Source: a virus. From it: a stretch of 64,000 nucleotides of DNA. The notes beneath the pieces are model-generated. The model was given only the letters and a program-made list of their open reading frames with translations, was not told where the DNA came from and did no database searches. Position numbers and translations under genes: made by a program. Location of the stretch: positions 19,901 through 83,900 of IMG/VR virus record IMGVR_UViG_3300029955_000013; one strand, given 5' to 3'. Below, one piece after another: positions 3,287 through 50,580 of this stretch (position 1 is the stretch's first letter; each line of letters begins with the position of its first letter).

Positions 3287-3588
3287 TTTACTTTATAGAA
3301 CCTTACAAATTGATTCGGACTGTAATACGCGGAAACTATATCGTTATCTGGATACACACCTACTGCCTGCTCGACCACGAGAATCTGATCCTTGTCGTAC
3401 TGATCGGTGTTGTAGTTGTAGTGGCTCGAGTAGAAGGCATTATAGCAATATATTTTACTGCCGTCCACCATCTCGACGCAGTAGTGTATCTCGCCTGCCT
3501 TGTAGCTCATTTTATCCTCTGTTATGAGAATAAACATAAACAGCCAGATGAAAGCGATAAGTATAAGAATATCACGTATGAACCTCAT
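3283..3588 (-). CDS. Small single-pass membrane protein, unknown
   Basis: 101 residues. Residues 5-22 (RDILILIAFIWLFMFILI) form one membrane segment or uncleaved signal anchor, followed by a soluble domain of about 75 residues with two cysteines (YC, YC) and many Tyr. It is the middle gene of the operon; it starts at the stop of the nuclease gene and overlaps the downstream gene by 4 bases. Sitting beside an exported nuclease it may act in the envelope; no family was recognised. Confidence 0.65.
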   Translation of the reverse strand: MRFIRDILILIAFIWLFMFILITEDKMSYKAGEIHYCVEMVDGSKIYCYNAFYSSHYNYNTDQYDKDQILVVEQAVGVYPDNDIVSAYYSPNQFVRFYKVK

Positions 3589-23484: not shown

Positions 23485-23899
23485 GGGGCCAAACAGGTTA
23501 TCGACTTAACGGTGTATGAGTCAGTAGTCATGCAGGGACAATTCGAATTGAGTTCCTCTAATAAATACATTCGATGCTATAAACGCAAAAAACAAAAGAA
23601 TCGCTGAAGGCGGCGCAATTCTAAGAAACATTTTCAGCAAGTCCGAAGCACCTTGTGCTATCGCAGCCTAATAAGCTTGCTGGAGAGTGCGCAAACTACT
23701 AAGTGTTTGCCAAGTGTGGTCGGGTAAATGTGGTTTCGCTTTTCTGCCATTGAGCGTAACTGCAGCACTTAGCAAAATGCTGTTATACCGAGATATAAAT
23801 GCAATCTGATATTCTCCTGGAAGAAACCAGCGATAAGCATGTGAGTTCCTACAGAACGTAAACGTTAAACACGAGGGTTCGACTCCCTCTGGCTCCACC
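23485..23899 (+). ncRNA. ssrA: tmRNA (transfer-messenger RNA)
   Basis: The 5' end GGGGCCA pairs with TGGCTCC (23890-23896) to form a tRNA-like acceptor stem, and the T-arm GAGGG-TTCGACT-CCCTC sits just before it. An internal frame starts at GCA (23585), preceded by TATAAAC, and runs 28 codons to TAA TAA (23669); the tag starts AKNKRIAEGG and ends EAPCAIAA, close to the usual ALAA protease signal. Pseudoknot-prone GC-rich segments follow the tag. After the discriminator A the gene reads CCG, so CCA is not fully encoded. tmRNA frees stalled ribosomes and tags their products for Clp proteolysis. Confidence 0.9.
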
Positions 23900-27631: not shown

Positions 27632-28351
27632 ATGGAAAATCTTTATGACATTAACGGCCTCGTTTTCTGGAGCAAGAGGGAGATACAGTTTAGGAGGTAT
27701 GCGCAGGAATTTTTTTCGAGGGAGATAAGTGACCTGCTCATATTTGAGAACAAGAGCTGGTCTTTCCATGAGACTGAAGGCCCGCTGCTCATTCCTAAGT
27801 CCTTAATCAACGCCGATTATACCAACGAGGACATTTGGGTACAGGAAGTAATTGGCGACGATAACGAGCTCGTATTGAGGCCTGAGACTACTCCAAGCTC
27901 TTTCCGGTATGCGGTTTCTTTGATAAATAACTATGTTTCGCTCCCACCTATGGTTGTGGAGCAGACCGGCAAGTCATTCAGGCGGGAGCAGGATCAGGTC
28001 TCAAAGAACATGAGGCTCAAGGAATTCTACCAGCAGGAGTTCCAGTGCATTTATGCGGCGGACACCTTTAATGATTATCAGTCTAAGATATTGCCCGGCT
28101 TGGTGGCGGTTTTCCAAAAGCTGATTGGTAAGCCTTGCAGGATGGTAGATAGCGACAGGCTGCCTTCTTACAGCTTAAGGACTGTCGATGTGGAGGTGAA
28201 TAATGGTAACAAGTGGATGGAGGTTTGTTCTGTTTCAAAACGTACGGATTTTCCTATTCAAGTTAAGTTTGGTTCCAAGGAACCGAAGCCTATGCTGGTT
28301 CTCGAGATCGCGATAGGCCTTGACAGGTGCGTTTACAATTACTTTTTATAA
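27632..28351 (+). CDS. Class II aminoacyl-tRNA synthetase core, glycyl-like
   Basis: 239 residues. Class II motifs: LRPET at 82-86, motif 2 FRRE (116-119) with EFYQQEFQ (131-138), and motif 3 EIAIGLDR (225-232). MEVCSVSKRTDFPIQ (196-210) resembles the glycyl-enzyme segment that ends in an RTDYD-like motif. Bacterial-type GlyRS enzymes with these motifs are over 400 residues; this one has only the catalytic core and no C-terminal anticodon-binding domain. It lies just after tRNA-Gly(TCC). It may charge phage tRNAs or have another adenylate-forming job; activity is not shown. Confidence 0.75.
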   Translation: MENLYDINGLVFWSKREIQFRRYAQEFFSREISDLLIFENKSWSFHETEGPLLIPKSLINADYTNEDIWVQEVIGDDNELVLRPETTPSSFRYAVSLINNYVSLPPMVVEQTGKSFRREQDQVSKNMRLKEFYQQEFQCIYAADTFNDYQSKILPGLVAVFQKLIGKPCRMVDSDRLPSYSLRTVDVEVNNGNKWMEVCSVSKRTDFPIQVKFGSKEPKPMLVLEIAIGLDRCVYNYFL

Positions 28352-28368
28352 TATTTTGCGGCCGAAAA

Positions 28369-28439
28369 GCATTTGTAGTTCAGTGATAGAACATGCCTCT
28401 CGTAAAGGTAAAACAGCAGTTTGATTCTGCTCTAATGCT
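28369..28439 (+). tRNA. tRNA-Thr (CGT)
   Basis: Anticodon loop CTCGTAA in TGCCT/AGGTA, D-arm GTTC-AGTGATA-GAAC, T-arm AGCAG-TTTGATT-CTGCT; acceptor GCATTTG/CTAATGC with one mismatch. Confidence 0.82.
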
Positions 28440-28446
28440 CATAAAG

Positions 28447-28479
28447 TTTTATTACTCTGGGGATTTCGATGTACATTTG
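28447..28479 (+). promoter_or_regulatory. TAnnTTTG promoter
   Basis: A T-rich element with CTCTGGGG from 28447 and TACATTTG at 28472-28479; transcription would start about 10 bases before the ATG at 28497. Confidence 0.5.
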
Positions 28480-28496
28480 CTTTGAAACATTATTCT

Positions 28497-29015
28497 ATGT
28501 ACAACATAAACAAGCGAGCGTTGGATATAAGGAAGATGTTTGGTGAGATTGCAGACATGAACAGTCCTTATGCTGGAACTCTGGATCTCGTTGTTAGGGA
28601 GGAAAAGATTTTCTGCATACTTGCCGAGTCGGTTAGCCAAACGCAGGCGAACTTCATGGTTCAAGAAATCTCAATGTCTTTCTTCCAGGACACGAAGAAC
28701 ATGTTGCTGTCGCAGGCCAAACTGATGCAGAATTTCATAGACACTTATTCTTCGTACGGTCCTGAGTTTAAGATAATAGAAGGGCAGCGAATGGCGTACC
28801 AGAATATGCTTAATTCAATAAATGGTTTGATCGAAGATGTTGACTCACATATAGAATTGTACACTCAATATATTGCGACCAACAACATAATAAAGAAAAG
28901 TATGAAGAAGACTATGAGGGAATGGAAGAAGAACGGTTTTCCTGATCGTTTTGCCGACTCGAGAGATATTCAGATAGTTCCAGACATAATGGGTAATGGT
29001 ACCACACCACCATAA
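28497..29015 (+). CDS. Helical protein of unknown function
   Basis: 172 residues from the ATG at 28497; a TTG at 28482 would lie at or before the expected transcription start. Mostly helical (FFQDTKNMLLSQAKLMQNFIDTY, YQNMLNSINGLIEDVDSHIELYTQYIA). It has its own TAnnTTTG promoter and is followed by a tRNA 8 bases after the stop. No family recognised. Confidence 0.6.
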   Translation: MYNINKRALDIRKMFGEIADMNSPYAGTLDLVVREEKIFCILAESVSQTQANFMVQEISMSFFQDTKNMLLSQAKLMQNFIDTYSSYGPEFKIIEGQRMAYQNMLNSINGLIEDVDSHIELYTQYIATNNIIKKSMKKTMREWKKNGFPDRFADSRDIQIVPDIMGNGTTPP

Positions 29016-29023
29016 ATTAAAAT

Positions 29024-29095
29024 GCTCCGCTCTTCTAACGGTTAGGATGTGACCCTCTCACGGTTACGATACGGGTTCGATTCCCGTGCGGAGTA
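29024..29095 (+). tRNA. tRNA-Glu (CTC)
   Basis: GCTCCGC/GCGGAGT acceptor, anticodon loop CTCTCAC in TGACC/GGTTA, T-arm ACGGG-TTCGATT-CCCGT. Confidence 0.85.
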
Positions 29096-29110
29096 CAAAA
29101 AATAATTGAA

Positions 29111-29308
29111 ATGGGTTGGAAATGTACGCAGATTTTGACGAGACAGGAGGCGATAAATTTGATTGTTAGGTTGTCTGATGTGAGCATCTTGGAGAGCCTT
29201 TCTGACGACGATTTGTCAAACGTGGTTGACGGATTTTGTGGAGATAACATGGATATGCCTTATTATGGCTGCAACTTCATGGTCTCCGATGTTATAGATA
29301 ATGATTAA
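29111..29308 (+). CDS. Small acidic protein, unknown
   Basis: 65 residues, helical, acidic C-terminus (CGDNMDMPYYGCNFMVSDVIDND) with three cysteines overall. It fills the gap between tRNA-Glu and tRNA-Gly. Confidence 0.5.
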   Translation: MGWKCTQILTRQEAINLIVRLSDVSILESLSDDDLSNVVDGFCGDNMDMPYYGCNFMVSDVIDND

Positions 29309-29311
29309 ATA

Positions 29312-29385
29312 AGCAGGAATAGCACAATGGCCAGTGTACGGGTTTGCCAAATCTGATATGGGAGTTCGATTCTCCCCTCCTGCTC
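29312..29385 (+). tRNA. tRNA-Gly (GCC), copy 1
   Basis: AGCAGGA/TCCTGCT acceptor, anticodon loop TTGCCAA, T-arm GGGAG-TTCGATT-CTCCC. Closely similar to the tRNA at 32314. Confidence 0.85.
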
Positions 29386-29398
29386 TGTGTGTGCAAAT

Positions 29399-29468
29399 AA
29401 AGTTCGAATCTTTACCTTATGTACCGGTTAGGGTAGGGTTAGTTCAATTGGTAGAACGGCACAGTGTC
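29399..29468 (+). pseudogene. tRNA fragments
   Basis: A T-arm-like piece AAAG-TTCGAAT-CTTT (29399-29413) and a 5' half-like piece GGGTTAGTTCAATTGGTAGAAC (about 29437-29458, split here by description only) stand without matching halves. They look like remnants of deleted tRNA genes. Confidence 0.4.
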
Positions 29469-29541
29469 GGGCATGTAACTCAGCGGTTAGAGTAGTTCGC
29501 TCATAACGAAAAGGTCGTAGGTTCGATTCCTACCTCGCCCA
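29469..29541 (+). tRNA. tRNA-Met-type (CAT)
   Basis: Anticodon loop CTCATAA, D-arm ACTC-AGCGGTTA-GAGT, T-arm GTAGG-TTCGATT-CCTAC. The acceptor GGGCATG/CTCGCCC has two mismatches. One of three CAT tRNAs; one could be the lysidine-modified Ile tRNA reading AUA. Confidence 0.75.
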
Positions 29542-29561
29542 CCTTAAAAGCAAGAATACGA

Positions 29562-29771
29562 ATGGATAAAAATGAGTTAAAGAAGGTTATTTACAAGACA
29601 CAACCGATTGCGATTTTGCTTAATGTCAGGAAAGACGGATTGTCTTATGCTGCGAGTGTCGATAACAAGATAGTAAAGTTCTTTATACCATACGATGAGA
29701 TTGGTGAAGTGGTTTGGTTTGCAGAGATGCCGGCAAAGTTGCTGATAAGGTATTTGATAGATGTTGATTAA
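29562..29771 (+). CDS. Small protein, unknown
   Basis: 69 residues with a beta-rich start (PIAILLNVRKDGLSYAASVDNKIVKFFIPYDEIGEVVW) and a helical end. Between tRNA genes. No family recognised. Confidence 0.5.
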   Translation: MDKNELKKVIYKTQPIAILLNVRKDGLSYAASVDNKIVKFFIPYDEIGEVVWFAEMPAKLLIRYLIDVD

Positions 29772-29780
29772 ATATTTTTT

Positions 29781-30062
29781 ATGGAAGCCAAAGAGAAAAG
29801 ATTTCAGGGCCCTAATGGCGAGTTCGTACCGAGTAAACCGCTCAAGAAAGGCTACCTTTCTATAAAGCAAGCTGATGAAATATGTGAGTGGGTTTATTGT
29901 CACGACTCGTTTAGCGACGAAGAGAAGTTAAAAATGATACTTGGGGTGGAGACGCTGATCGGGGACATAATATCTGAGAACCTTGGAGACTTCAATGTGG
30001 CTTATGTTCCAACCTGGTCAACAAAGTTTAATGACAAAACGCCAATATCGTCTAACGGTTAG
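29781..30062 (+). CDS. Small protein whose end overlaps a tRNA gene
   Basis: 93 residues (GPNGEFVPSKPLKKGYLSIKQADEICEWVYCHDSFSDEEKLKM...). The stop TAG at 30060-30062 lies 20 bases inside the tRNA-Glu gene starting at 30041, so the last codons and the tRNA 5' end share sequence. Function unknown. Confidence 0.5.
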   Translation: MEAKEKRFQGPNGEFVPSKPLKKGYLSIKQADEICEWVYCHDSFSDEEKLKMILGVETLIGDIISENLGDFNVAYVPTWSTKFNDKTPISSNG

Positions 30063-30113
30063 GATTGCTCGTTTTCAGCGAGAAAGATGTCGGTTCGAAT
30101 CCGTCTATTGGTT
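30041..30113 (+). tRNA. tRNA-Glu (TTC), second copy
   Basis: GCCAATA/TATTGGT acceptor, D-arm GTCT-AACGGTTA-GGAT, anticodon loop TTTTCAG in CTCG/CGAG, T-arm with TTCGAAT. Second gene for the same anticodon. Confidence 0.85.
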
Positions 30114-30198
30114 CAAAACTTGGAGGAATCTGGGTCTATCCTGAATTAATAAAGTGCGAGCAAGTGTACATATCTCGCCGCAATAAAGTAAGAGGGAT

Positions 30199-30270
30199 CG
30201 TGGATTAGCTCAGTGGTAGAGTAGCAGGCTGATGGACTGTTGGTCGGTGGTTCAAATCCACCATCCACAA
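30199..30270 (+). tRNA. tRNA, probably Ile (GAT)
   Basis: D-arm GCTC-AGTGGTA-GAGT and T-arm GGTGG-TTCAAAT-CCACC are clear. The anticodon arm reads GCAGG-CTGATGG-ACTGT with a G-A mismatch next to the loop, so the anticodon is GAT if the loop has 7 bases, or the loop has 9 bases. Confidence 0.6.
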
Positions 30271-30352
30271 CAAACCAGATAGGAATGTCTGGTGTGCTCT
30301 GGTAATGAGAGTGTGAATAAGCGCGAATAAAACACACTGGTAAGAAACAGAG

Positions 30353-30424
30353 TGTACTATAGGGTAGTGGTAGCCCGTCGGCATCAACAGCCGAAGATCT
30401 CAGGTTCGATTCCTGGTAGTGCAA
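30353..30424 (+). tRNA. tRNA with Leu anticodon (CAA) but short variable loop
   Basis: TGTACTA/TAGTGCA acceptor, D-arm GGGT-AGTGGTA-GCCC, perfect anticodon stem TCGGC/GCCGA with loop ATCAACA (anticodon CAA), 5-base variable loop AGATC, T-arm TCAGG-TTCGATT-CCTGG. Bacterial Leu tRNAs have a long variable arm; this one does not. A normal long-arm CAA tRNA lies at 45053. Confidence 0.75.
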
Positions 30425-30430
30425 CAATTT

Positions 30431-30769
30431 ATGGCTGAATATTATCATATAACTAATAGTAAAAACCTTAGTAATATCCTTACGGAAGGCCTGATACCAA
30501 ACAAGGGATATGGCATGAGCCGTAGGTTAATAAAGCATAACAAAAACTTTATTACGGATAATATTGCCTACATAATTCATAAGCAGATAGGCTTCAAAAG
30601 GTTTATTACAAAAGATTATGTAGTTCTTAATATCGAGCCATACGGTTTAAATATCAAAGAACACACTTATTGGGATCATATAAACCATAAACATGAAGTT
30701 GCAAAGCATGAGTTTGTTTGTTTTGACGTAATATTACCGAACAAAATTAGTGTAATGCAGAACAATTAA
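30431..30769 (+). CDS. ADP-ribosyltransferase-fold-like small protein
   Basis: 112 residues from the ATG at 30431 (a start at 30419 would lie inside the tRNA). The opening YYHITNSKNLSNILTEGLIPNKG follows the H-x-T...NL-x-x-IL-x-x-GL-x-P signature of ADP-ribosyltransferase-like folds, including the tRNA phosphotransferase KptA and DarT-like enzymes. YVVLNIEPYGL could be the later core strand. T/A-ending codons are more frequent than in its neighbours. Substrate unknown; a role in tRNA processing or host modification is speculative. Confidence 0.5.
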   Translation: MAEYYHITNSKNLSNILTEGLIPNKGYGMSRRLIKHNKNFITDNIAYIIHKQIGFKRFITKDYVVLNIEPYGLNIKEHTYWDHINHKHEVAKHEFVCFDVILPNKISVMQNN

Positions 30770-30778
30770 AATAATTTT

Positions 30779-31651
30779 ATGAACACACGTATTGCGCCTT
30801 CCCCAACAGGCTTTTTTCATCTGGGGACTGCACGGACAGCTTATCACAACTGGCTTGTGGCTCGCGCAACGGGTGGCTTGTTCACCCTGAGGATCGACGA
30901 CACCGACGACGACAGGAACGATGAGGGTCATGTACAGATGATCTACGACTGCATGGACTGGCTTGGTCTCGATTATGACGATACTTTCAGGCAGAGCGAC
31001 CGGAACAAGATTTATGTTGATTACGCTCAGTTCCTTTTGGACATTGATTATGCTACTGTTGCCGACAATGGTGCTATAATGTTTAGATTTCGTGATGAAG
31101 ATTTAATTCACTTTTTTAACGACACTATCGCCGGCAAGATAGAAACTAAGCAGGATGACATCGACAATCTTAGGAGCCTTGTTCTTATGAAGTCTGATGG
31201 TAACCCTACTTATAACTTCTGTTCCATTGTCGACGACTACCTAAGCAAGATAGACTGGATAATTCGTGGCGCCGATCACATAAAGAATACGATAAAACAG
31301 CTACATGTCATAGAGGCAGTTCAGTCTTTGGATAATCCGGTTAATTATTGGAAACCAAAGTTCACCCATGTGGGCCTTATACACGACATGAGCAACAAGA
31401 AGCTGTCCAAGAGGACCGGTGCGAAAAGCGTGCTCGACTACAAGAACGAAGGCGTAAAGCCGGGTGCTCTGCTCAACACGCTGCTTAGGATTGGCTGGGC
31501 GCCTACCGACCCGAACTTCGACTCGAAGCATAAGATCGTGACGAAGGACATGGCGGTGGACATGATACTCAAGGAAGGTAACTTCAGGTCTGCTCCCGGT
31601 AAGTTCGATCCGATGAAACTCGCATACTACAATAAAAAGCATAGTAATTAA
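30779..31651 (+). CDS. Glutamyl-tRNA synthetase catalytic core (class I, truncated type)
   Basis: 290 residues. The start RIAPSPTGFFHLGTART carries the HIGH signature as HLGT (14-17), RIDDTD (38-43) matches the RIEDTD strand, GNPTYNF (141-147) and DWIIRGADHIKNTIKQ line the active site, and KLSKR (208-212) is the KMSKS loop. A complete GluRS has about 470-500 residues; the C-terminal anticodon-binding domains are missing, as in the GluRS-like enzyme that modifies tRNA-Asp. Three tRNA-Glu genes lie within 3.3 kb upstream. It may charge them or modify a tRNA. Confidence 0.85.
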   Translation: MNTRIAPSPTGFFHLGTARTAYHNWLVARATGGLFTLRIDDTDDDRNDEGHVQMIYDCMDWLGLDYDDTFRQSDRNKIYVDYAQFLLDIDYATVADNGAIMFRFRDEDLIHFFNDTIAGKIETKQDDIDNLRSLVLMKSDGNPTYNFCSIVDDYLSKIDWIIRGADHIKNTIKQLHVIEAVQSLDNPVNYWKPKFTHVGLIHDMSNKKLSKRTGAKSVLDYKNEGVKPGALLNTLLRIGWAPTDPNFDSKHKIVTKDMAVDMILKEGNFRSAPGKFDPMKLAYYNKKHSN

Positions 31652-31656
31652 AAAAA

Positions 31657-31676
31657 TGTCGCACATCAGTGCGACA
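31657..31676 (+). other. Stem-loop between GluRS-like gene and tRNA-Thr
   Basis: TGTCGCAC pairs perfectly with GTGCGACA around ATCA. No T-run follows; the tRNA starts 3 bases later, so it may be a processing signal or weak terminator. Confidence 0.6.
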
Positions 31677-31679
31677 CTC

Positions 31680-31750
31680 GCCCGTATAATTTAATGGAAG
31701 ACTAATCCTTTGGTATGGGATATGCATCAGTTCGATTCTGATTATGGGCT
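31680..31750 (+). tRNA. tRNA-Thr (GGT)
   Basis: GCCCGTA/TATGGGC acceptor, anticodon stem ATCCT/GGGAT with loop TTGGTAT, T-arm ATCAG-TTCGATT-CTGAT. Third Thr tRNA. Confidence 0.82.
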
Positions 31751-31766
31751 CATAAAATTTCAATTA

Positions 31767-31937
31767 ATGCAGTTATCGTTTGGTATTGGTGATACGGTTT
31801 ACGCGAACGTTGGTGGCCAGGAGATGAAAATATTGGATGTCTCTGGCAACACGTATATTTGTCAGGTAATTGTTGACGGTAAGACGGAAAAGGTTAACTT
31901 CGAAAAGGGAACAGTACACAAGAAAATAAGGAAATAA
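31767..31937 (+). CDS. Small beta-barrel-like protein
   Basis: 56 residues from the ATG at 31767; longer in-frame starts fall inside the tRNA. FGIGDTVYANVGGQEMKILDVSGNTYICQVIVDGKTEKVNF is a typical SH3/Tudor-like five-strand pattern. Function unknown. Confidence 0.5.
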   Translation: MQLSFGIGDTVYANVGGQEMKILDVSGNTYICQVIVDGKTEKVNFEKGTVHKKIRK

Positions 31938-31975
31938 TTTATAAATGGAAAACATTCACGTCTCGTCTGGATAGC

Positions 31976-31998
31976 TCATCATTGATCAACAATGATGA
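31976..31998 (+). promoter_or_regulatory. Hairpin covering a start codon
   Basis: TCATCATTG (31976-31984) pairs perfectly with CAATGATGA (31990-31998) around ATCAA. The ATG at 31992 lies in the 3' arm, so the hairpin would block initiation of the gene that follows. Confidence 0.55.
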
Positions 31999-32195
31999 CT
32001 ACAATTACAAGAACTCGATTTTGGAGAGTCGAGTGGATCCATAGAAATGGATACCGTGCACCACATTCGTTTGTGGAAGCAAAAAACAAGAAAGAGGCTG
32101 TGAAAATAGCCCAAGATAATTCCAGGTTTACTGATTTTCCCAAGACTTGGTCCTTTAATCTTGTCCGCTTAGTGGAGAAGGGAGAGGAAGAATAA
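31992..32195 (+). CDS. Small basic protein, unknown
   Basis: 67 residues (RTRFWRVEWIHRNGYRAPHSFVEAKNKKEAVKIAQDNSRF), the pattern of a small beta-alpha domain. Two overlapping ATGs (31992, 31995) lie in a 9-bp hairpin. No family recognised. Confidence 0.5.
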   Translation: MMTTITRTRFWRVEWIHRNGYRAPHSFVEAKNKKEAVKIAQDNSRFTDFPKTWSFNLVRLVEKGEEE

Positions 32196-32286
32196 ATGAC
32201 TTAAAACCGAACGGGTTTGTGGACAAGCAACAACCTGCTCCTGGCCAGCAATGGTATATGGAAAAACCACTTTAAATATGTTGTCG

Positions 32287-32310
32287 TGAAAGGGGGCGGT
32301 GACCCTTTCA
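32287..32310 (+). other. Stem-loop before tRNA-Gly
   Basis: TGAAAGGG pairs with CCCTTTCA around an 8-base loop, 3 bases before the tRNA. The rest of 32196-32286 shows no gene. Confidence 0.5.
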
Positions 32311-32313
32311 AAT

Positions 32314-32384
32314 GCGGGAGTAGCACAATGGTAGTGCACGGGCTTGCCAAGTCTGATACGAGGGTTCGATTCCCTTCTCCCGCT
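32314..32384 (+). tRNA. tRNA-Gly (GCC), copy 2
   Basis: GCGGGAG/CTCCCGC acceptor, anticodon loop TTGCCAA, T-arm GAGGG-TTCGATT-CCCTT. Probably a duplicate of the tRNA at 29312. Confidence 0.87.
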
Positions 32385-32419
32385 CAGGGTTAAAAAGAGT
32401 TTAAAATAAAAACAATTCT

Positions 32420-32692
32420 ATGAGTAATTTAAAGATACCTTCTTTTGAAGAGGTATTAGCGAATGATGGCAAGGCTGAAGACCTTGAGCTTATTAAGATA
32501 GAAAAGCAATCTCAGCTTGACACCCAGGTCAGGACCATAGAGGTTAAGATAGCAAGGGCACGCAAGCTTTTTGCGAAGTCTGTGATCGACCCGAAGATTG
32601 ACACTTTGGCGATTGCCTCAGAACTAAAGATATTGACTGCGGAACTCGAGCTTGCGAAGGAAATAAGAGAGGCGGTTTTCCCAAAAAATTAA
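32420..32692 (+). CDS. Small coiled-coil protein, unknown
   Basis: 90 residues, helical and charged (LDTQVRTIEVKIARARKLFAKSVID ... ASELKILTAELELAKEIREAVF). It follows tRNA-Gly and precedes an unknown gene by 4 bases. No family recognised. Confidence 0.55.
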   Translation: MSNLKIPSFEEVLANDGKAEDLELIKIEKQSQLDTQVRTIEVKIARARKLFAKSVIDPKIDTLAIASELKILTAELELAKEIREAVFPKN

Positions 32693-32696
32693 TTTG

Positions 32697-33476
32697 ATGA
32701 GCGTTATTGATGAACTTTGGAAACCTCAGCAAGAATCCGTTCACGATTATGACGACACTGTAAAAGAACTGCATCCGTACAAGGATTATATCCAGGAGAA
32801 GTATCGGCCGGAGCCTTGCGATTACAACAATTCGCCGCCTCGTTTTTATTATGGTTATGGCAACAGTTCTATTTTAATCACCAAGCAGCGTGGAAGGCGT
32901 AGGCATCTTGGGAAGCATATCATCATCAAAAAGACGCTTAAAAGCACCTATCTCGATTTTGAGCTTCCTGACAAACTTTACGTTACTGTAGAGGGTTTGA
33001 TCGTACATGAAAGCGATTTCTATTGTACTGATGACTCGTTCATGGAGGCGGAATACTTTACTAACAAGTCCATTTACCTGCAGTTTAAAGACGTTAGTTG
33101 CGACATCAACTTAATAGCTTATTTCTTGACCAATAAGGAGTATGATGATTACGAGAAGGAAGACTATCGGTATAGGAGCATGGGCATGATGAGTCCTGTG
33201 CTGGAAATTTACAAGTATCTGCACGAGGGTCGTTCGAAGATAGAGATCGTTTACTGCAATACCTTCTTTGATGATCCGAACAAGCATGTCATAAATAACA
33301 TGTTAAATACGAGTAAGTTTTTGATAGACCCGGTGGCCCCAATCGTACAAAGTGTTTGTGATCTCGGCCGGCATCTGTTCGTCAGCTCTAATGGTTACAT
33401 CTGTCACTGGAAGTTTTATACCAGATTAGATACAGACTTACTGATAAGACATGCTAAAAAACTTGTATTTCTATGA
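32697..33476 (+). CDS. Protein of unknown function
   Basis: 259 residues from the ATG at 32697. The N-terminus has RFYYGYGNSSILITKQRGRRRHLGKHIIIKK, then a beta-rich middle with aromatic residues; a C-terminal LFVSSNGYICHWKFYTRLDTDLL may be a strand pair. The last codons overlap the start of the P-loop gene by 4 bases. No family recognised. Confidence 0.55.
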   Translation: MSVIDELWKPQQESVHDYDDTVKELHPYKDYIQEKYRPEPCDYNNSPPRFYYGYGNSSILITKQRGRRRHLGKHIIIKKTLKSTYLDFELPDKLYVTVEGLIVHESDFYCTDDSFMEAEYFTNKSIYLQFKDVSCDINLIAYFLTNKEYDDYEKEDYRYRSMGMMSPVLEIYKYLHEGRSKIEIVYCNTFFDDPNKHVINNMLNTSKFLIDPVAPIVQSVCDLGRHLFVSSNGYICHWKFYTRLDTDLLIRHAKKLVFL

Positions 33477-33964
33477 ACATATTTGTGCTCGGCGGTACCA
33501 AGTCCGGTAAATCCACCATTGCGAAGTATATTGCTGATACGTATGGCTTCAAACTCATACAGATGTCCAAGCCGCTGAAAGATAGGTTCGAGCGTGGGGA
33601 TCTGAACATAGACGTTTACACGAACATGTTGGTTAAGACCACGCTTAGTTACATAGGTTCCAAAGAGAGGCGTAAATCTGAGTATTTCTTGAATTACGCT
33701 TTGCTGGAAATGGGGCCTAATAATGTGTTCGACGGTGTGCGGAACCCTCGTGACTTCATGAGGCTTTTCAATCACTTCGAGGACATGGTTATAAAGATGC
33801 CTGGCGAAGGCATAAATGCTTTTGAGGTGGATGGCTTAAGAGCTATATTCGGCTGCCACAGGTATATGTACAAGTACATGAGCGCAAAGCCGCTGATCAA
33901 GTACCATTACGATCTGGAGCTATCCATAGAGGAGAATTTCCAGAACAACAAAATAGTCATTTAA
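33473..33964 (+). CDS. P-loop kinase, dNMP/adenylate-kinase-like
   Basis: 163 residues. Walker A GGTKSGKST at 7-15, then a QMSKPLKDRFERG lid/base-binding region and FDGVRNPRDFMRLF, which resembles the strand and arginine segment of phage deoxynucleoside monophosphate kinases. The likely reaction is phosphoryl transfer from ATP to a dNMP. Other nucleotide genes lie at 56-58 kb. Substrate not predictable. Confidence 0.7.
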   Translation: MNIFVLGGTKSGKSTIAKYIADTYGFKLIQMSKPLKDRFERGDLNIDVYTNMLVKTTLSYIGSKERRKSEYFLNYALLEMGPNNVFDGVRNPRDFMRLFNHFEDMVIKMPGEGINAFEVDGLRAIFGCHRYMYKYMSAKPLIKYHYDLELSIEENFQNNKIVI

Positions 33965-33973
33965 AAGTAGCTT

Positions 33974-35185
33974 ATGGTTTCTAAATTCGCAATGGACGAC
34001 GCTTATGCTGTACAGGCAGACATTATAGAAGGTTGGTACACGAAGTACAAGTCCATGGATTTGCCTAACGGCTTCAAGAGGGTGTTGTATAGCTTTTCTA
34101 AAAGCGGCGTATCTGTTGCTCTCGGCAGGAATGAAAAATACGGGTATTTCATCTGCGCTTACGGTCAGGGCGAATATTCTTTCGTGATGACAGAAGCTGA
34201 TAGCGAGAACATTCCTGCCGAGGAAGTCTTTGACGTTAAAACTAAGGAAGGATTTATAAAGCATTTCGAGAGGTTTTGCAGGGAGTATAATTACTTGGAT
34301 TTCGAGGTAGTCGATAATGTAAGAGCCTATGATGACACGACGCTTTTCTGCCCGGCCGGGATGCAGAAGTATAAGAACGTGTTTAAGGCGGAGTGCCCAG
34401 AGGATGCTGACAAGGCCGTAAGGCGTCAGTACATGAAGCTAAATGAGAGTGTTATAGCAAATATTCAACCTTGCATAAGGATGAACGATTTGGATGATAT
34501 TGGTGACGGCACGCATTTGCTTTACTTCAACATGATGGGCCTTTTTGCATTTAGGACTCCTGGCTTTGGTGTTAGGCATGCTGTAAAATTTTGGCTTGAT
34601 TTCCTTGAGACGATCGGCTTGAAACCGGATCTTGTTACTGTCCACCCAGACAAGCAAGATTGGATATTTTATTACCAAGATGAAACGGTAGAGCAGAAAT
34701 ATGTAGACGATTTTCTTCAGTATAACGGGCCTGATTTCCTGCTCGATCCAGATTGCACGTGGACTGATGGCGAGATTGGAGGTTACTGTACGGAGTTCTA
34801 CATAAAGGACGTGGAGATAGGCAACATTGTGAATCCGCTTGGTAACTGCATAGATTGCGGCTTTGGCCTCGAGAGGATTCTGTATATACTCAATAATGAG
34901 TTGACTATCGCAACCGATTTGGACACGCTTAAGGAAACCATACTTAAGATATTAGACAGCGGTTACACGCCATCTAATCTCAAACAGGGCTATGTTTTAA
35001 GGAAGCTGTTGAGGGAGTTCGTCAAGAAGGGCGGCGAGATGGATCACGAGGTGTTTCTCGACGAGAAGGATAGGCAGCGAAAAATATATGACAGGTGGCT
35101 GCTGCTCAAGGATAAGCACAAGGACAAGAGCCCTGAATGGTGGTATGATACGCACGGGATTGATTTGAAAATGATAAACGGTTAA
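33974..35185 (+). CDS. Alanyl-tRNA synthetase-like class II core with N-terminal extension
   Basis: 403 residues. Residues about 1-95 are an extra domain not seen in AlaRS. From about 120 the AlaRS pattern is clear: DDTTLFCPAGMQKYKNVF (usual form DPTLLFTNAGMNQFK), then QPCIRMNDLDDIGDGTHLLYFNMMGLFAF (165-193, motif 2) and GNCIDCGFGLERILYI (motif 3). The editing and C-terminal oligomerisation domains of the roughly 870-residue enzyme are missing. No tRNA-Ala is seen in the window, so it may act on the host tRNA or on one outside. Confidence 0.75.
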   Translation: MVSKFAMDDAYAVQADIIEGWYTKYKSMDLPNGFKRVLYSFSKSGVSVALGRNEKYGYFICAYGQGEYSFVMTEADSENIPAEEVFDVKTKEGFIKHFERFCREYNYLDFEVVDNVRAYDDTTLFCPAGMQKYKNVFKAECPEDADKAVRRQYMKLNESVIANIQPCIRMNDLDDIGDGTHLLYFNMMGLFAFRTPGFGVRHAVKFWLDFLETIGLKPDLVTVHPDKQDWIFYYQDETVEQKYVDDFLQYNGPDFLLDPDCTWTDGEIGGYCTEFYIKDVEIGNIVNPLGNCIDCGFGLERILYILNNELTIATDLDTLKETILKILDSGYTPSNLKQGYVLRKLLREFVKKGGEMDHEVFLDEKDRQRKIYDRWLLLKDKHKDKSPEWWYDTHGIDLKMING

Positions 35186-35188
35186 TTT

Positions 35189-35506
35189 ATGACCAAAGCG
35201 CCTTTTGACGTCTTCTTTACTTTTGATATAAGTTTGAATATTGTGTCTTATGATTCGGATAGTGATACAATGAATTGGTTTAGCCGGTCTGTTCGTAATC
35301 AGATTAAGCTTCACGAGGAAGTTGGAAAGAAGATGGAAGACAGAGGCTATCTTTATGGCTGGTATGAAATATTGGAGACTGATTTTAACTTTCTCACACC
35401 GGCTAAAGAGTCGATCCAGGATAAAAAGGTAAAAGTAAAAGTCGGCGCCTATAAGGATGAACAGTTTATGTATTCTAAGAAAGAATTGGAAAAAATGGTA
35501 AGTTGA
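35189..35506 (+). CDS. Small charged protein, unknown
   Basis: 105 residues, Asp/Ser-rich start, then a helical and basic end (DKKVKVKVGAYKDEQFMYSKKELEKMV). It starts 3 bases after the AlaRS-like gene, implying shared translation. No family recognised. Confidence 0.5.
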   Translation: MTKAPFDVFFTFDISLNIVSYDSDSDTMNWFSRSVRNQIKLHEEVGKKMEDRGYLYGWYEILETDFNFLTPAKESIQDKKVKVKVGAYKDEQFMYSKKELEKMVS

Positions 35507-35516
35507 TAAGTAAGAT

Positions 35517-35592
35517 GGGCGATTACTCCCTCACCCTTATAAGGTGTTGAAAGGATAGTTGGTACAGTTCGGTTCGATCCCGAAATCGCCTA
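35517..35592 (+). tRNA. Aberrant tRNA, Ile-type anticodon (TAT), D-arm displaced
   Basis: The acceptor GGGCGAT/ATCGCCT and T-arm TTCGG-TTCGATC-CCGAA are perfect, and an anticodon hairpin TCACC-CTTATAA-GGTGT gives TAT. Only TACTCCC lies where the D-arm should be, while a D-loop-like AGTTGGTA lies after the anticodon arm in a 20-base variable region. Could be a rearranged or inactive gene. Confidence 0.6.
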
Positions 35593-35594
35593 CA

Positions 35595-36071
35595 ATGATT
35601 TACGATGAATTGTGTGGAGAGATTTATGACGAGGTGATAAAGTTTAATATTTTTAAACAGTACCTCGAGAATTACGATGTAGATTTGCCTAAGTTAAGAG
35701 TTGAGACGCTCGATTTTTGTTCACAGACAGTCGATGGCAGGGATGCGGATTATATGGCCAGGATTGCCGCGGCAAAGCCGAAGATTTATTTCGCTACTCT
35801 TATAAAGAGCAAGATACTTGGCGAGCTCGTTAAAATCAAGAAACGTCAAGATTTACTCGAGAAATGGCAGGCATCAGGCATATTGGATGGCTTACACCAG
35901 GGAGTTAACACTAATATTGTTGCATTGATGGAAAGCCAGTCGGAGCAGAGTATTACTGAAAACAGGAGCGCTGAGTTCTATTGGGACACAGTAAGGCTTC
36001 CGCTCGTAAGGAGTGTGTTAATTGATTCTTTAATCAAAGAAGCAGAGCATGACCAGGAAGAAAAGGTATGA
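35595..36071 (+). CDS. Helical protein of unknown function
   Basis: 158 residues from the ATG at 35595, which lies after the tRNA; the longer frame runs into the tRNA and is rejected. Mostly helical with AKPKIYFATLIKSKILGELVKIKKRQDLLEKW. It overlaps the next gene by 23 bases. No family recognised. Confidence 0.55.
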   Translation: MIYDELCGEIYDEVIKFNIFKQYLENYDVDLPKLRVETLDFCSQTVDGRDADYMARIAAAKPKIYFATLIKSKILGELVKIKKRQDLLEKWQASGILDGLHQGVNTNIVALMESQSEQSITENRSAEFYWDTVRLPLVRSVLIDSLIKEAEHDQEEKV

Positions 36072-36429
36072 ACTTACGAAATCGTCTGCCGATAAATTGA
36101 CAGACGCCATTGGGTGCAAGATAGATTTTAAGATAAAAGAGCTTGTAGTTTATCTTAACTTAAATAAGTTCGTTACATTTGCATCTTGTCAGGGACATAG
36201 GAGTCACGGCTTGCGTTACCCTTGGATTGATTTCGACATAAAGTCATACAATGGTTTATTCGATTTTATAAAGAGGCACAAAATCGTCGGCCTTGAAATA
36301 AAGCTCTTGGAAAGCGGTGATGGTTTCGTTATGAGGCTACAACCGGTAGACAAGACCAGGATAAAGGCGGCGAGGGATATTTTTCACATGCTTGAGAAGA
36401 AGTTAAGTAAAAGTTTTTGGAATAAATAA
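36049..36429 (+). CDS. Small basic protein, unknown
   Basis: 126 residues with a basic start (MTRKKRYELTKSSADKL) and a striking FVTFASCQGHRSHGLRYPWIDFDI segment that may form a metal or nucleotide site (Cys, two His, Asp). Overlaps the previous gene. No family recognised. Confidence 0.55.
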   Translation: MTRKKRYELTKSSADKLTDAIGCKIDFKIKELVVYLNLNKFVTFASCQGHRSHGLRYPWIDFDIKSYNGLFDFIKRHKIVGLEIKLLESGDGFVMRLQPVDKTRIKAARDIFHMLEKKLSKSFWNK

Positions 36430-36480
36430 GTGATTCTTAGTTTCATCGCTGTAGGGATTCTATTAATCAAAACAGTTAAA

Positions 36481-36834
36481 ATGAAAGATCTAAGAATGGC
36501 CTTTGAGGGTTTGAGGAAAAACCCAGTATTCGTTGAAAATTTCTCTTGTGTAGAAGACGTCTTTAATGGTTTTGTCACATCGGAAGAACAAGAGCAGGGA
36601 GTAGAGATACTATATGCTGCTTACCATAGACCAGATTGGGAAGGCTATGCTACAGTTTACTTCTACAATGCGATCTCCGGAAAGTATTACGAGGTACACG
36701 GCTCACACTGTTCCTGCTACGGCTTGGAAGGTCAATGGGTCCCAGAGGAATTATCGTTAGAGGGATTGCAATACATCCTCGACAATGGTAATTCACACGA
36801 GTATGACGACTTTAGAGAAATCTTGGGAAGTTAA
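36481..36834 (+). CDS. Small phage protein of unknown function
   Basis: 117 residues from the ATG at 36481 (a GTG at 36430 adds a doubtful hydrophobic extension). LYAAYHRPDWEGYATVYFYNAISGKYYEVHGSHCSCYGLEGQWVPEE is compact, aromatic-rich and contains His/Cys residues that could bind metal. It ends at a structured intergenic element. Confidence 0.6.
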   Translation: MKDLRMAFEGLRKNPVFVENFSCVEDVFNGFVTSEEQEQGVEILYAAYHRPDWEGYATVYFYNAISGKYYEVHGSHCSCYGLEGQWVPEELSLEGLQYILDNGNSHEYDDFREILGS

Positions 36835-36838
36835 AAAA

Positions 36839-36885
36839 ATGGTATCAAAGTATTGGGTGAGATTCCCAGTATTCCCTGATACCAA
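36839..36885 (+). other. Two-tier RNA hairpin
   Basis: TGGTATCA (36840-36847) pairs with TGATACCA (36877-36884), and inside it TATTGGG (36851-36857) pairs with CCCAGTA (36865-36871). An A-run precedes it and tRNA-Ile starts 4 bases after it. It may be a terminator or a processing signal. Confidence 0.55.
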
Positions 36886-36887
36886 AC

Positions 36888-36960
36888 AGGCCTGTATATC
36901 ATCGGTTAGATAGCCATGCTGATAACATGGAAGCAGTTGGTTCGACTCCAACCTGGCCTA
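36888..36960 (+). tRNA. tRNA-Ile (GAT), copy A
   Basis: Anticodon arm CCATG-CTGATAA-CATGG, D-arm TATC-ATCGGTTA-GATA, T-arm GTTGG-TTCGACT-CCAAC, acceptor AGGCCTG/CTGGCCT with one mismatch. Confidence 0.87.
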
Positions 36961-36975
36961 CACTAAAAGAATTTT

Positions 36976-38142
36976 ATGAAAGTAGATGTTAACCAGTTCA
37001 AGGAGATACCTTCTCCTCACGGAGTTGGATTGTGTGTCTACGGCGGCATGAGCGATGAAATCAAGGCATGGACCGAGTATCACGATATAAAGACAGAATT
37101 CCACGGAAGATTTACTAATTTTCTGTTTGACGGCCAGGATCTCGATAATTGTTTCAACGAGGGGAAGGTGTACGATTACGTGGATGGTTTTTCGCCGAAT
37201 CTTAATAAGCATTTGCACCTCGGTCATGCGTCTAATTTTGTAATAGCGAAAGCGTTGCAGAACATGGGAATTGGCAAGAAGTACATTGCGAACCTTGGTG
37301 ATACTGTTACTGGAGCTGTTGATAAGTTCGAGGCGCTCGAGGCTTTGAGTGACCTTTGGGACAAGTTTGATTACAAGGTCGATAAGATTTACTTCGCTAC
37401 ACAATTGGTAGGCGATGTTGAGATGGAGGATGGTACTGGCGATTATGTCGGCACGAAGGTTTTCGACGTGAACGGTCAGAAGATAGTTGGCCAGAAGAGC
37501 AACGGTAATTATAGTTACTTTTACCATGACGTCGTTCTCGCGAGCAAGTTGAAAGGCGAGACTCTGTATATGACCGGTTTCGAGCAGAAGGAGCACTTTG
37601 AGAGCTTGAAGTGTCTTTACCCCGGCACTAACCACCTGATGCTTGGCCTCGTGACGATCGACGGCAGGAAGATGTCGAGTAGCGAGGGTAACGTGATTAT
37701 GTTGGCGGACGTCATGGACACGCTCAGGACCGAATTTGGAGACGATCACCTTGCTTGGAATGTTTTGAGTGGTTATATACTCAAGTCAGACGTGGACTCG
37801 GTTAAGGACATCAATATGGCCAACATAGACAACCCACGACAGTCTCTCGGTTTGTACTTCAGTTACACGCTCGCAAAGTTGAAGAGCGCCGGCATGAATG
37901 TGGAGCTGAAGGAAAAGTTTAATTCTTTTCGGATGCAGTACAAGTTCTTGAAGGCAAAGACGAACCTGCAGCCGAGAATATTGTTCGACGGCATTTTCGA
38001 TGTTGCAAAGAAGATTAGTACTCTATACGTAAACCACCACATAGCAGGCAACAAGAAAAACCAGGAGCTGTACCAGCCTTTGATGGAGGATTTGCTGCTC
38101 GGCATGGTAAAGCTTGGCATGTTTGACGTAGATAAGGTTTAA
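36976..38142 (+). CDS. Arginyl-tRNA synthetase-like class I core
   Basis: 388 residues. YVDGFSPNLNKHLHLGHASNFVIAKAL (about 67-95) is the ArgRS opening with HLGH at 81-84 as HIGH; ANLGDTVTGAVDKFEAL follows; GLVTIDGRKMSSSEGNVI carries KMSSS at 232-236. The C-terminal 140 residues are helical as in the ArgRS anticodon-binding domain but shorter; bacterial ArgRS is about 550-590 residues. No tRNA-Arg is seen in the window although AGG codons are common, so it may charge a host tRNA. Confidence 0.78.
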   Translation: MKVDVNQFKEIPSPHGVGLCVYGGMSDEIKAWTEYHDIKTEFHGRFTNFLFDGQDLDNCFNEGKVYDYVDGFSPNLNKHLHLGHASNFVIAKALQNMGIGKKYIANLGDTVTGAVDKFEALEALSDLWDKFDYKVDKIYFATQLVGDVEMEDGTGDYVGTKVFDVNGQKIVGQKSNGNYSYFYHDVVLASKLKGETLYMTGFEQKEHFESLKCLYPGTNHLMLGLVTIDGRKMSSSEGNVIMLADVMDTLRTEFGDDHLAWNVLSGYILKSDVDSVKDINMANIDNPRQSLGLYFSYTLAKLKSAGMNVELKEKFNSFRMQYKFLKAKTNLQPRILFDGIFDVAKKISTLYVNHHIAGNKKNQELYQPLMEDLLLGMVKLGMFDVDKV

Positions 38143-46473: not shown

Positions 46474-46488
46474 CTGGCTCCTCAAATG

Positions 46489-46557
46489 GCGGTTAACCTA
46501 TGTGGCGTGGGAGCAGTCTGCAAAACTGTGTGAGTTGGTTCGAATCCAACAGCCGCT
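46489..46557 (+). tRNA. tRNA-Cys (GCA)
   Basis: Anticodon arm GCAGT-CTGCAAA-ACTGT, T-arm GTTGG-TTCGAAT-CCAAC; acceptor close to GCGGTTA/CAGCCGC with one mismatch. The D-arm is short. Confidence 0.82.
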
Positions 46558-46575
46558 TCCAACTTAGCAGGAGGC

Positions 46576-46610
46576 AAAGGGAATTCAGAAATGAGTTCCT
46601 TTTTTTATTT
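46576..46610 (+). terminator. Intrinsic terminator
   Basis: GGAATTC (46580-46586) pairs with GAGTTCC (46593-46599) with one G-T pair, followed by seven T. The T-run doubles as the T-rich element of the next promoter. Confidence 0.7.
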
Positions 46611-46632
46611 CGGGGATTCGGTGCTACATTTG
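46600..46632 (+). promoter_or_regulatory. TAnnTTTG promoter of the lipoprotein operon
   Basis: TTTTTTTATTTCGG (46600-46613) and TACATTTG (46625-46632). The ATG at 46637 follows after 4 bases, so the mRNA would be leaderless or nearly so. Confidence 0.6.
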
Positions 46633-46636
46633 TTCT

Positions 46637-46900
46637 ATGAAATATCTGATAGTAATTTTCGCTTTTGCGACGTTAGGTTGTGACTGGTCATGGAATGTGC
46701 CAGTTTATAAGAGATACAATGGAATAGTAGTGGACAAACTGATTGTTCCACAAGACAGAGCTCTAACTGAGTATTACGTAGTTTTCAAGGCAGACTCACT
46801 CAGCAAGAACATTTCTGTTGAAATGGAATGGAAAAGGTATATAAATACCAAAGTTGGCCAGAGAATATCCTTTAATTTAACCGAAAGCGACATAAAATGA
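46637..46900 (+). CDS. Lipoprotein 1 of a tandem trio
   Basis: 87 residues. The signal peptide MKYLIVIFAFATLGC ends in a lipobox (TLGC, Cys15). The mature part has YNGIVVDKLI, EYYVVFKADSLSKNISVEMEWKRYINTKVGQRISFNLTE, which aligns with the two following proteins. A small phage lipoprotein in the envelope suggests superinfection exclusion or receptor masking, by analogy with known phage lipoproteins; this is inference. It overlaps the next gene by 4 bases. Confidence 0.7.
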   Translation: MKYLIVIFAFATLGCDWSWNVPVYKRYNGIVVDKLIVPQDRALTEYYVVFKADSLSKNISVEMEWKRYINTKVGQRISFNLTESDIK

Positions 46901-47172
46901 GATACATAATATTGACAGCTGCAATATTTTTAGCATCTTGTAATTCGGATTACACTGAGGTGAAGATGCATACTGGCATAATAGTAGACAAATTCATGAG
47001 ATCATCTGGGGACGATAATGGAGGTTCAACTCCAGTAATCGTAATGAGGGACGATTCTATTGTTAGAAACATACCAGTATACGTTAATCTTGGAATCTAT
47101 ACGAACGTGTGGGTTGGAAAAAAAGTGACACTATACTTATCGCAAGAAGCTATTGATACTTACTCGAGATAA
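46897..47172 (+). CDS. Lipoprotein 2 of a tandem trio
   Basis: 91 residues. MRYIILTAAIFLASC has a lipobox (LASC, Cys15). The mature part (HTGIIVDKFM, VIVMRDDSIVRNIPVYVNLGIYTNVWVGKKVTLYLSQ) follows the same strand order as its neighbours. Divergence is high, so the duplications are old or under strong selection. Confidence 0.7.
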   Translation: MRYIILTAAIFLASCNSDYTEVKMHTGIIVDKFMRSSGDDNGGSTPVIVMRDDSIVRNIPVYVNLGIYTNVWVGKKVTLYLSQEAIDTYSR

Positions 47173-47185
47173 ATAAATTTGCAAA

Positions 47186-47482
47186 ATGAGAAGGAATAAT
47201 TGGAGTATAATCGTGTGTGCATTCATAGGCATGTTTCTGTTTGGCATTGCAGTTGGTTGTAAGCCTGGTCGGACGTACCATATTGCCGGCAAGGTGACCT
47301 CAAAGTTTACTCTTGCACGTGGTAAGAGTGATGATGATTTGTTTATAGTCGTTTACAGCGACTCTATGCACCAGAAGGTGCCGATCGAAGTTACCATGTC
47401 GACCTACATCAACCATGACGTGGGTGAATACATCGAGTTCGATCTCGACCAGTTCGACATAGATCGGGCGTTGAACTACTGA
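47186..47482 (+). CDS. Lipoprotein 3 of a tandem trio
   Basis: 98 residues. A longer signal peptide ends in GIAVGC (Cys25). The mature part (IAGKVTSKFTLARGK, LFIVVYSDSMHQKVPIEVTMSTYINHDVGEYIEFDLDQ) is homologous to the two upstream proteins. It uses more G/C-ending codons than the first two. Last gene of the operon. Confidence 0.7.
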   Translation: MRRNNWSIIVCAFIGMFLFGIAVGCKPGRTYHIAGKVTSKFTLARGKSDDDLFIVVYSDSMHQKVPIEVTMSTYINHDVGEYIEFDLDQFDIDRALNY

Positions 47483-47767: not shown

Positions 47768-47775
47768 TATATTTG
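47768..47775 (+). promoter_or_regulatory. TAnnTTTG box before a micro-gene
   Basis: TATATTTG follows a T-run and a TATTTAAA box (47754-47761), so both promoter styles overlap here. Confidence 0.5.
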
Positions 47776-47793
47776 CATCGTAATAATAAAGCA

Positions 47794-47871
47794 ATGAAAA
47801 ATTTATCATCATACAGCTCAAGTTGGTCTTGGTCCTCTAAAAGGGATGAGAGCGGAACTGTATTGTGGTAA
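47794..47871 (+). CDS. 25-residue Ser/Trp-rich peptide gene
   Basis: The frame begins MKNLSSYSSSWSWSSKRDE and ends VLW. It has its own promoter 19 bases upstream and a strong terminator 25 bases downstream, so the transcript would be little more than this peptide. It may be a real micro-protein or a small RNA with a chance frame. Confidence 0.45.
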   Translation: MKNLSSYSSSWSWSSKRDESGTVLW

Positions 47872-47896
47872 GTGAAATACTTTAAATACATTTGAG

Positions 47897-47927
47897 CCTC
47901 GTCCTAAACAGACGAGGTTTTTTATTT
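47897..47927 (+). terminator. Intrinsic terminator of the micro-gene
   Basis: CCTCGTC (47897-47903) pairs with GACGAGG (47911-47917) and is followed by TTTTTTATTT. Confidence 0.85.
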
Positions 47928-47931
47928 ACAT

Positions 47932-48004
47932 ACGTCGTAGCATAATGGTATGCACCCGGTCTCCAAAACCGTGGATAGACAGAGTTCGATTCTCTGACGG
48001 CGTG
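47932..48004 (+). tRNA. tRNA-Trp (CCA), copy 1
   Basis: Anticodon loop CTCCAAA with CGGT/ACCG stem, T-arm CAGAG-TTCGATT-CTCTG, acceptor ACGTCGT/ACGGCGT. Confidence 0.83.
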
Positions 48005-48019
48005 CTTTAAAAAGTGATA

Positions 48020-49637: not shown

Positions 49638-49952
49638 ATGTTTGAACACATTGGTTTCTATTTCAGCAAGGACACGTACGGCGGCAACTGTTGGAAAAGC
49701 TTCGAGACCGTTGATGAGCTGAAGAGGTATAAGACTGAGTACGAGATGTTGTATGCAAATATACAGCAATGCGTCTCGACCGTGCCTACGCCGAGATTCA
49801 AAATAAAGCTTAACGTGAGGGGTACTTTTTATGTAGCAGACATGCAATACGTCAACGTAAGGGATACAATAGTTAAGACGGCAGAGGATGCGATCGAACT
49901 TATAAAAAACTGGAGAGAATATGACCCCGTTGAAACACAAGATTTATCTTGA
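49638..49952 (+). CDS. Small protein, unknown
   Basis: 104 residues, aromatic-rich start (FEHIGFYFSKDTYGGNCWKSF), beta-rich middle, helical end. Overlaps the M23-like gene by 32 bases. No family recognised. Confidence 0.5.
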   Translation: MFEHIGFYFSKDTYGGNCWKSFETVDELKRYKTEYEMLYANIQQCVSTVPTPRFKIKLNVRGTFYVADMQYVNVRDTIVKTAEDAIELIKNWREYDPVETQDLS

Positions 49953-50580
49953 CAAGATTCCGGCCCAAGGCCGTTTCGGCGCCATAAGGAAGCATGACAT
50001 CCACACTGGCGTTGACCTACACTGTCCTGAGTTTGCACTCGTGTATGCGATGGAGACTGGCACCGTAGTGAACATCTGTCCTTTCACTGGGGATGACGCA
50101 GGATCACCCTGGTGGAATGACACGTCAGCCGTTCTAATCAAGGGAAGATCCGGCATTGTTTTGTACGGCGAGGTTGGCCTCATAAAAGTAAAGGTAGGCG
50201 ACAGAGTCACAAAGGGCGATAACTTTGCTTGCGTATTCAAGGTTTTGAAGAACGATAAAGGCCTGCCTACGAGCATGCTTCACGTAGAGCTATATCATAA
50301 GGACTATATCGGGGATGGCGAGTGGTGGAAGCACGACGAGCCGCAGCCGAGACACCTGAAGAATGTAGAGGCAATGCTTAAGAGGGTTGACGAGAGGAAC
50401 GATCCTTATCTACAGATGAAGAAGCGAGGGCTTACAGATGCGGAGATCGCTGATGGAACAGTATTCGATGCTTCGTATTACATGGAGCCGCTCGAGGCGG
50501 AAAGGTCGGGGAAGGAAATAATGGAAGAGTTTAGGAAGCACAGACAAAAAATGAAAAATGAAATTGAAGCTGGTAATTGA
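49921..50580 (+). CDS. M23 (LytM-like) peptidase-fold protein
   Basis: 219 residues. FGAIRKHDIHTGVDLHCPEFALVYAMETGTVV carries His28 and Asp32 of the LytM HxxxD zinc site; LYGEVGLIKVKVGDRVTKGD is the typical barrel strand and turn; SMLHVELYHKD supplies His121. The usual HxH catalytic His is replaced by Met119, so it may be an inactive or altered peptidase. The C-terminal 60 residues are charged helix. It could act on peptidoglycan or as a structural barrel. Confidence 0.7.
   Translation: MTPLKHKIYLDKIPAQGRFGAIRKHDIHTGVDLHCPEFALVYAMETGTVVNICPFTGDDAGSPWWNDTSAVLIKGRSGIVLYGEVGLIKVKVGDRVTKGDNFACVFKVLKNDKGLPTSMLHVELYHKDYIGDGEWWKHDEPQPRHLKNVEAMLKRVDERNDPYLQMKKRGLTDAEIADGTVFDASYYMEPLEAERSGKEIMEEFRKHRQKMKNEIEAGN

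Follow-up and report, generated by a model that had tools for sequence, protein, structure and literature searches.

Small phage lipoproteins held in the host envelope by a lipid anchor, namely Llp of T5, Cor of T1 and phi80 and Rtp45 of phage Rtp, are among the closest described counterparts of the locus reported here. Superinfection exclusion is established for Llp and Rtp45, which act from the periplasmic side of FhuA or LptD (PMC9586334, PMC12685063). The structurally characterised exclusion lipoproteins contain an intramolecular disulphide and are encoded beside a receptor-binding or tail-tip gene (PMC9586334, PMC12685063). Those that we found are all from coliphages, and little has been described of the proteins that phages of Bacteroidota direct to the envelope.

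The DNA analysed, 64 kb in length and referred to below as the window, comprises positions 19901-83900 of the 83.9-kb IMG/VR virus record IMGVR_UViG_3300029955_000013. ARAGORN detected 27 tRNA genes and one tmRNA, class II aminoacyl-tRNA synthetase domains were found with Pfam, and in its regulatory motifs the window resembles the DNA of a Bacteroidota phage. Three genes, A (46637-46900), B (46897-47172) and C (47186-47482), lie head to tail on the plus strand and encode products of 87, 91 and 98 aa. Lipoboxes were assessed with the PROSITE rule PS51257 (basic N-region, hydrophobic stretch, cysteine at 15-35), which all three match, with the lipid cysteine at 15, 15 and 25, respectively. The rule also matched 3 of the 216 ORFs of at least 60 aa, every one of them on the opposite strand. 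By this measure A, B and C are the only credible lipoproteins of the window, each carrying a predicted signal-peptidase-II signal and lipid anchor. A first-pass annotation had placed three lipobox proteins at 46637, 46897 and 47186, and its coordinates, strand and lipoboxes are all borne out.

The trio differs from the coliphage proteins in several respects. Where Llp, Cor and Rtp45 hold an intramolecular disulphide, mature A, B and C each contain the lipid cysteine alone, with no second one. Their genes are found not beside a receptor-binding or tail-tip gene but in a tRNA/accessory region, with tRNA-Cys (46488-46561) on one side and two tRNA-Trp genes (47932 and 48288) on the other. The ORFs and tRNAs at 43-51 kb form tRNA/accessory surroundings that include an RNA ligase, and among them no receptor-binding or tail gene was recognised beside the cassette, several of these ORFs being without assigned function. 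The trio further departs from the coliphage proteins in its predicted OB-type barrel, in having three paralogues and in having no PDB sequence match, the matches returned by a PDB sequence search being due to chance only. Because the disulphide and the gene neighbourhood are missing, we do not file the trio with the Llp/Cor/Rtp45 family; it could work similarly to Llp and Rtp45. Our preferred reading, held tentatively and as a whole at a little less than an even chance, is that a large, tRNA-rich phage with a Bacteroidota-type host carries the locus as an accessory cassette, and that this cassette encodes periplasm-facing, envelope-binding accessory lipoproteins for which exclusion would be the likeliest single role.

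The three proteins share one domain. BLASTP identity was 27% over 88 residues for A/B, 29% over 58 for A/C and 31% over 64 for B/C, and Smith-Waterman alignment of the mature domains in a shuffle test gave z of 10.9, 14.7 and 8.9, respectively, with 0 of 2000 shuffles reaching the observed scores. A, B and C are mutual best matches among the 480 ORFs of the window and have in common a strand running from an invariant G to K, a D-S turn and the motif Y-x-N-x-x-V-G. On this sequence evidence they are, as the first-pass annotation had proposed, diverged paralogues; they have one common domain, and their divergence is saturated.

The mature domain of A is predicted to be an OB-type beta-barrel. 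AlphaFold2 models reached pLDDT 69.6 and 84.5, the latter for mature A from an alignment that combined the trio with one viral homologue, with the element order b-b-b-a-b-a. The solved structures nearest to the A model in Foldseek were DUF2500 (PF10694, 3q6c), PROPEN_03304 (3rd4) and other OB-type barrels, including the lipoprotein 3f1z. DUF2500 and PROPEN_03304 have the closest fold and a comparable length, but the trio has no significant Pfam sequence match and the Foldseek E-values were 0.008-0.02. For the B model, the top viral fold neighbours were DUF3592-annotated proteins of Pectobacterium phage PM2 and Citrobacter phage Merlin and the NrdC.7-like protein of Pseudomonas phage 201phi2-1; these differ in their length (about 135-154 aa), show 13-21% identity at Foldseek E 0.002-0.006 and find no Pfam counterpart in the trio. 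Since the nearest neighbours are OB proteins and yet no Foldseek match has E < 1e-3, the small OB-type beta-barrel is a reasoned assignment, short of proof.

Sequence searches placed the trio in no described family. No Pfam or NCBIfam family was found above cut-off for A, B or C, and neither the DUF2500 and DUF3592 Pfam models nor the PADLOC anti-phage defence models matched at E up to 1. Gene product C weakly matched phrog_2547, whose function is not known (residues 4-94, E 3.7e-4), and B weakly matched phrog_890, a lipoprotein family (E 0.019); A matched neither. Among 13 named phages of Bacteroidota hosts no copy of the trio was detectable, and phrog_2547 was without a match there. A match in Klebsiella phage ZX1 was rejected as a different protein lacking a lipobox. 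Likewise set aside were two IMG/VR contigs (L048, 1316-1840; L049, 2751-3275) encoding a 174-aa, spanin-like lipoprotein with a C-terminal TM helix, which closely resembles A in the signal peptide and is unrelated to it in the mature part. Apart from the huge-phage domain described below, no usable match came from searches of IMG/VR, GTDB genome contigs and INPHARED for close relatives of A, B and C and of their profile. A, B and C are real and, as judged from these searches, belong to a family so far undescribed.

The spanin-like contigs bring up the possibility that the trio comprises accessory lysis or spanin-type lipoproteins aiding outer-membrane breach. The o-spanins are among the small lipoproteins of phages, there is an M23 peptidase ORF at 49921-50580, which is 2.4 kb downstream, and the related signal peptide MKYLIVIFA..GC is attached to a spanin-like protein on both contigs. 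Resemblance to A ends with that signal peptide, however, and the mature domains of the trio are predicted to be compact beta-barrels, without the coiled coil, proline-rich linker or C-terminal TM of a spanin. No holin or endolysin was recognised next to the cassette, and a spanin has no need of three paralogues. We consider a lysis function very improbable.

The one outside relative validated by sequence is a domain in a protein of the 735-kb phage LR756501 (L031, 2282-2818), where a TM helix flanks it on each side; its z is 10.5 against A, 8.2 against B and 6.2 against C. A near-identical copy of this two-TM protein is present in IMGVR_UViG_3300028283_000235. The five phages above 634 kb are predicted infectors of Bacteroidetes (PMC7162821). 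The LR756501 protein shares the domain and a membrane tether with the trio and differs in being anchored by its two flanking TM helices rather than by lipid, in its single copy and in its gene surroundings. That the extracytoplasmic barrel is tethered to the membrane by two kinds of anchor supports a predicted binding role there. It also bears on a rival reading in which the lipoproteins take over the envelope for the phage without exclusion, binding inner-membrane or periplasmic host machinery, possibly for stress sensing, lipoprotein or lipid traffic or peptidoglycan synthesis, and keeping the envelope stable or productive over a long infection. The two-TM protein is an inner-membrane form, and its gene adjoins metabolic accessory genes, namely polyphosphate-kinase-2-like and ADP-ribosylglycohydrolase-like ORFs (recognised by eye), not adsorption genes; the fold neighbours DUF2500 and DUF3592 are not adsorption proteins either, and a putative promoter element of the cassette, TTTTTTTATTTCGG, is common to the tmRNA and tRNA genes. 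A set of three divergent copies of a single binding domain is, on the other hand, more typical of conflict than of housekeeping. We regard this takeover without exclusion as a realistic alternative, doubtful rather than probable. In either case, a family with lipid-anchored and TM-anchored forms, in a tRNA-rich phage and a 735-kb phage, offers concrete candidates for exclusion or envelope takeover.

The preferred reading places the trio on the periplasmic side. In Bacteroidota, lipoproteins exposed at the surface have an acidic export signal immediately following the cysteine, such as CXK(D/E)2, SDDDD or SDDFE (PMC5080379). The mature N-termini of A (CDWSWN) and C (CKPGRT) match none of these Bacteroidota signals; A has one acidic residue (+2), and C has a lysine and an arginine near the anchor. 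Since A and C are without the acidic signal and B (CNSDYTE) resembles it in part only, a periplasm-facing orientation would be the likelier. The partial likeness of the B start to the F. johnsoniae signal SDDFE would suit lipoproteins of the outer leaflet that are exposed at the surface as decoys or to mask receptors, but the missing signal in A and C speaks against such a role, and we hold it to be improbable.

In the periplasm-facing reading that we prefer, the cassette would encode a single kind of small extracytoplasmic OB-type domain in three versions that have diverged strongly, and each of these would be exported, lipidated and left facing the periplasm for want of a clear surface-export signal. 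The beta-barrel would most likely dock on host envelope proteins, with a different partner for each paralogue, and the purpose that we infer to be the single likeliest is to protect the infected cell against other phages, through a receptor altered from its periplasmic side or a block to DNA passage. Against this, the OB fold is compatible with many functions and no homologue of known function was found. The first-pass annotation had taken the genes for exported, lipid-anchored paralogues with host-type leaderless starts, which the lipoboxes and the boxes before A and C support; the superinfection exclusion or receptor blocking that it expected of them is possible, and nothing in the DNA itself demonstrates blocking of other phages. 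A bolder version sees here a new multi-specificity exclusion cassette: one OB-type scaffold would have been diversified into a set of periplasmic lipoproteins, three in number, so that each jams its own host receptor or entry pathway, and megaphages of Bacteroidota would have a two-TM version. This seems to us unlikely.

Expression signals are present before A and before C. A terminator-like hairpin (46576-46603, plus strand; 12 pairs, loop of 4, then a T-run) lies 3' of tRNA-Cys and would insulate the cassette from transcription on that side. The TTTTTTTATTTCGG element (46600-46613, plus strand), upstream of the A promoter box, recurs before the tmRNA gene (23412) and, as a near-identical copy, before the tRNA array (27079), giving 3 matches against 0.5 expected. 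Because it overlaps the T-run of the terminator, its meaning as a promoter element is something that we only infer. In Flavobacterium psychrophilum the sigma-A box TAnnTTTG lies at -12 to -5, and leaderless mRNAs make up 5.5% of the total in that study (PMC9723704). A Bacteroidota sigma-A type -7 box, TACATTTG (46625-46632, plus strand), precedes the ATG of A by 4 nt, and a second, TAAATTTG (47174-47181, plus strand), precedes that of C by exactly the same distance, with TTG at -33. With the box spacing of F. psychrophilum, +1 falls on the ATG of A and of C, and both are therefore predicted to be leaderless, each from its own TAnnTTTG box. The pattern TANNTTTGN4ATG has 3 sites in the 64 kb, where 0.92 would be expected, and 5 of 100 shuffles have at least that many; the third of these sites is antisense within a gene, so a single box is modest evidence. 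The start of B falls within the stop codon of A (ATGA overlap), and B is probably translationally coupled to A. A and B would be expressed from one host-type promoter and C probably from a second. Of the shared host-type leaderless promoter that had been claimed for the trio, the host-type boxes and the leaderless spacing hold for A and C, while a single promoter for all three genes is rejected in view of the box before C.

The tandem layout suggests duplication, and repeated duplication and divergence had been put forward as the origin of the trio. This origin is supported only in part. A is as close to the huge-phage domain (score 77, z 10.5) as to B (score 74, z 10.9), and a tree does not resolve the trio as a clade against that domain (bootstrap 33). 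The GC3 of A (0.39) and B (0.34) is the lowest among 32 genes (mean 0.56, sd 0.08), whereas that of C (0.57) is typical. Given the GC3 values and the tree, an arrival of A and B together, fairly recently, next to a C that had been resident for longer appears to fit better than repeated duplication in place. The cassette is absent from the related 115-kb record G003, which shares the portal gene and may itself be incomplete, and so may be dispensable or fast-changing.

Several other features of the window were recorded. The portal-protein ORF (5634-8288, plus strand) apparently contains two in-frame intein-like insertions, CLTGDT...HN and CLRENT...HN, and its counterpart in G003 is similarly long, at 54% identity. 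A DNA/RNA non-specific endonuclease (3588-4244, minus strand; PF01223, E 1.8e-33) begins with the export-like signal MKRIIGLLTCVYLFVVCLMLS and is possibly a periplasmic nuclease and an independent exclusion candidate. The tmRNA is phage-encoded (23485-23899, plus strand), with the tag AKNKRIAEGGAILRNIFSKSEAPCAIAA and the TTTTTTTATTTCGG plus TATCTTTG promoter type upstream. Several aminoacyl-tRNA synthetase-like genes, some apparently partial, are interleaved with tRNA genes at 27632-38142 (plus strand); Pfam matched tRNA-synt_2b at 27632 and tRNA-synt_2c (Ala) at 33974, and a GluRS-like gene at 30779 and a TyrRS-like gene at 36976 were named by eye.

About 300 bp downstream of the trio, a candidate ribosome-mediated attenuator (47768-48005, plus strand) precedes a phage tRNA-Trp gene; it possibly merits closer study than the lipoproteins do. 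On the plus strand, a TATATTTG box at 47768 with a predicted transcript start at 47780 is followed by an ORF for the leader peptide MKNLSSYSSSWSWSSKRDESGTVLW (47794-47871; 3 Trp in 25), a terminator (47894-47920) and, 3' of it, tRNA-Trp(cca) at 47932. Three Trp codons were found in only 2 of 444 short ORFs. Rfam matched only the tRNA in the region, and a literature search of limited scope found no report of a phage tRNA attenuator. GGAUGAG in the leader ORF (47844-47850) can pair with CUCGUCC in the terminator (47898-47904), and the whole leader fold has a z of -3.6. In this one sequence, the leader, terminator and antiterminator resemble an attenuator of the trp type, placed ahead of a tRNA gene of a phage. 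With a ribosome stalled at WSW, the structure formed by the free downstream RNA is the competing antiterminator (-20.2 kcal/mol); with the ribosome at the stop codon, it is the terminator only (-14.2 kcal/mol).
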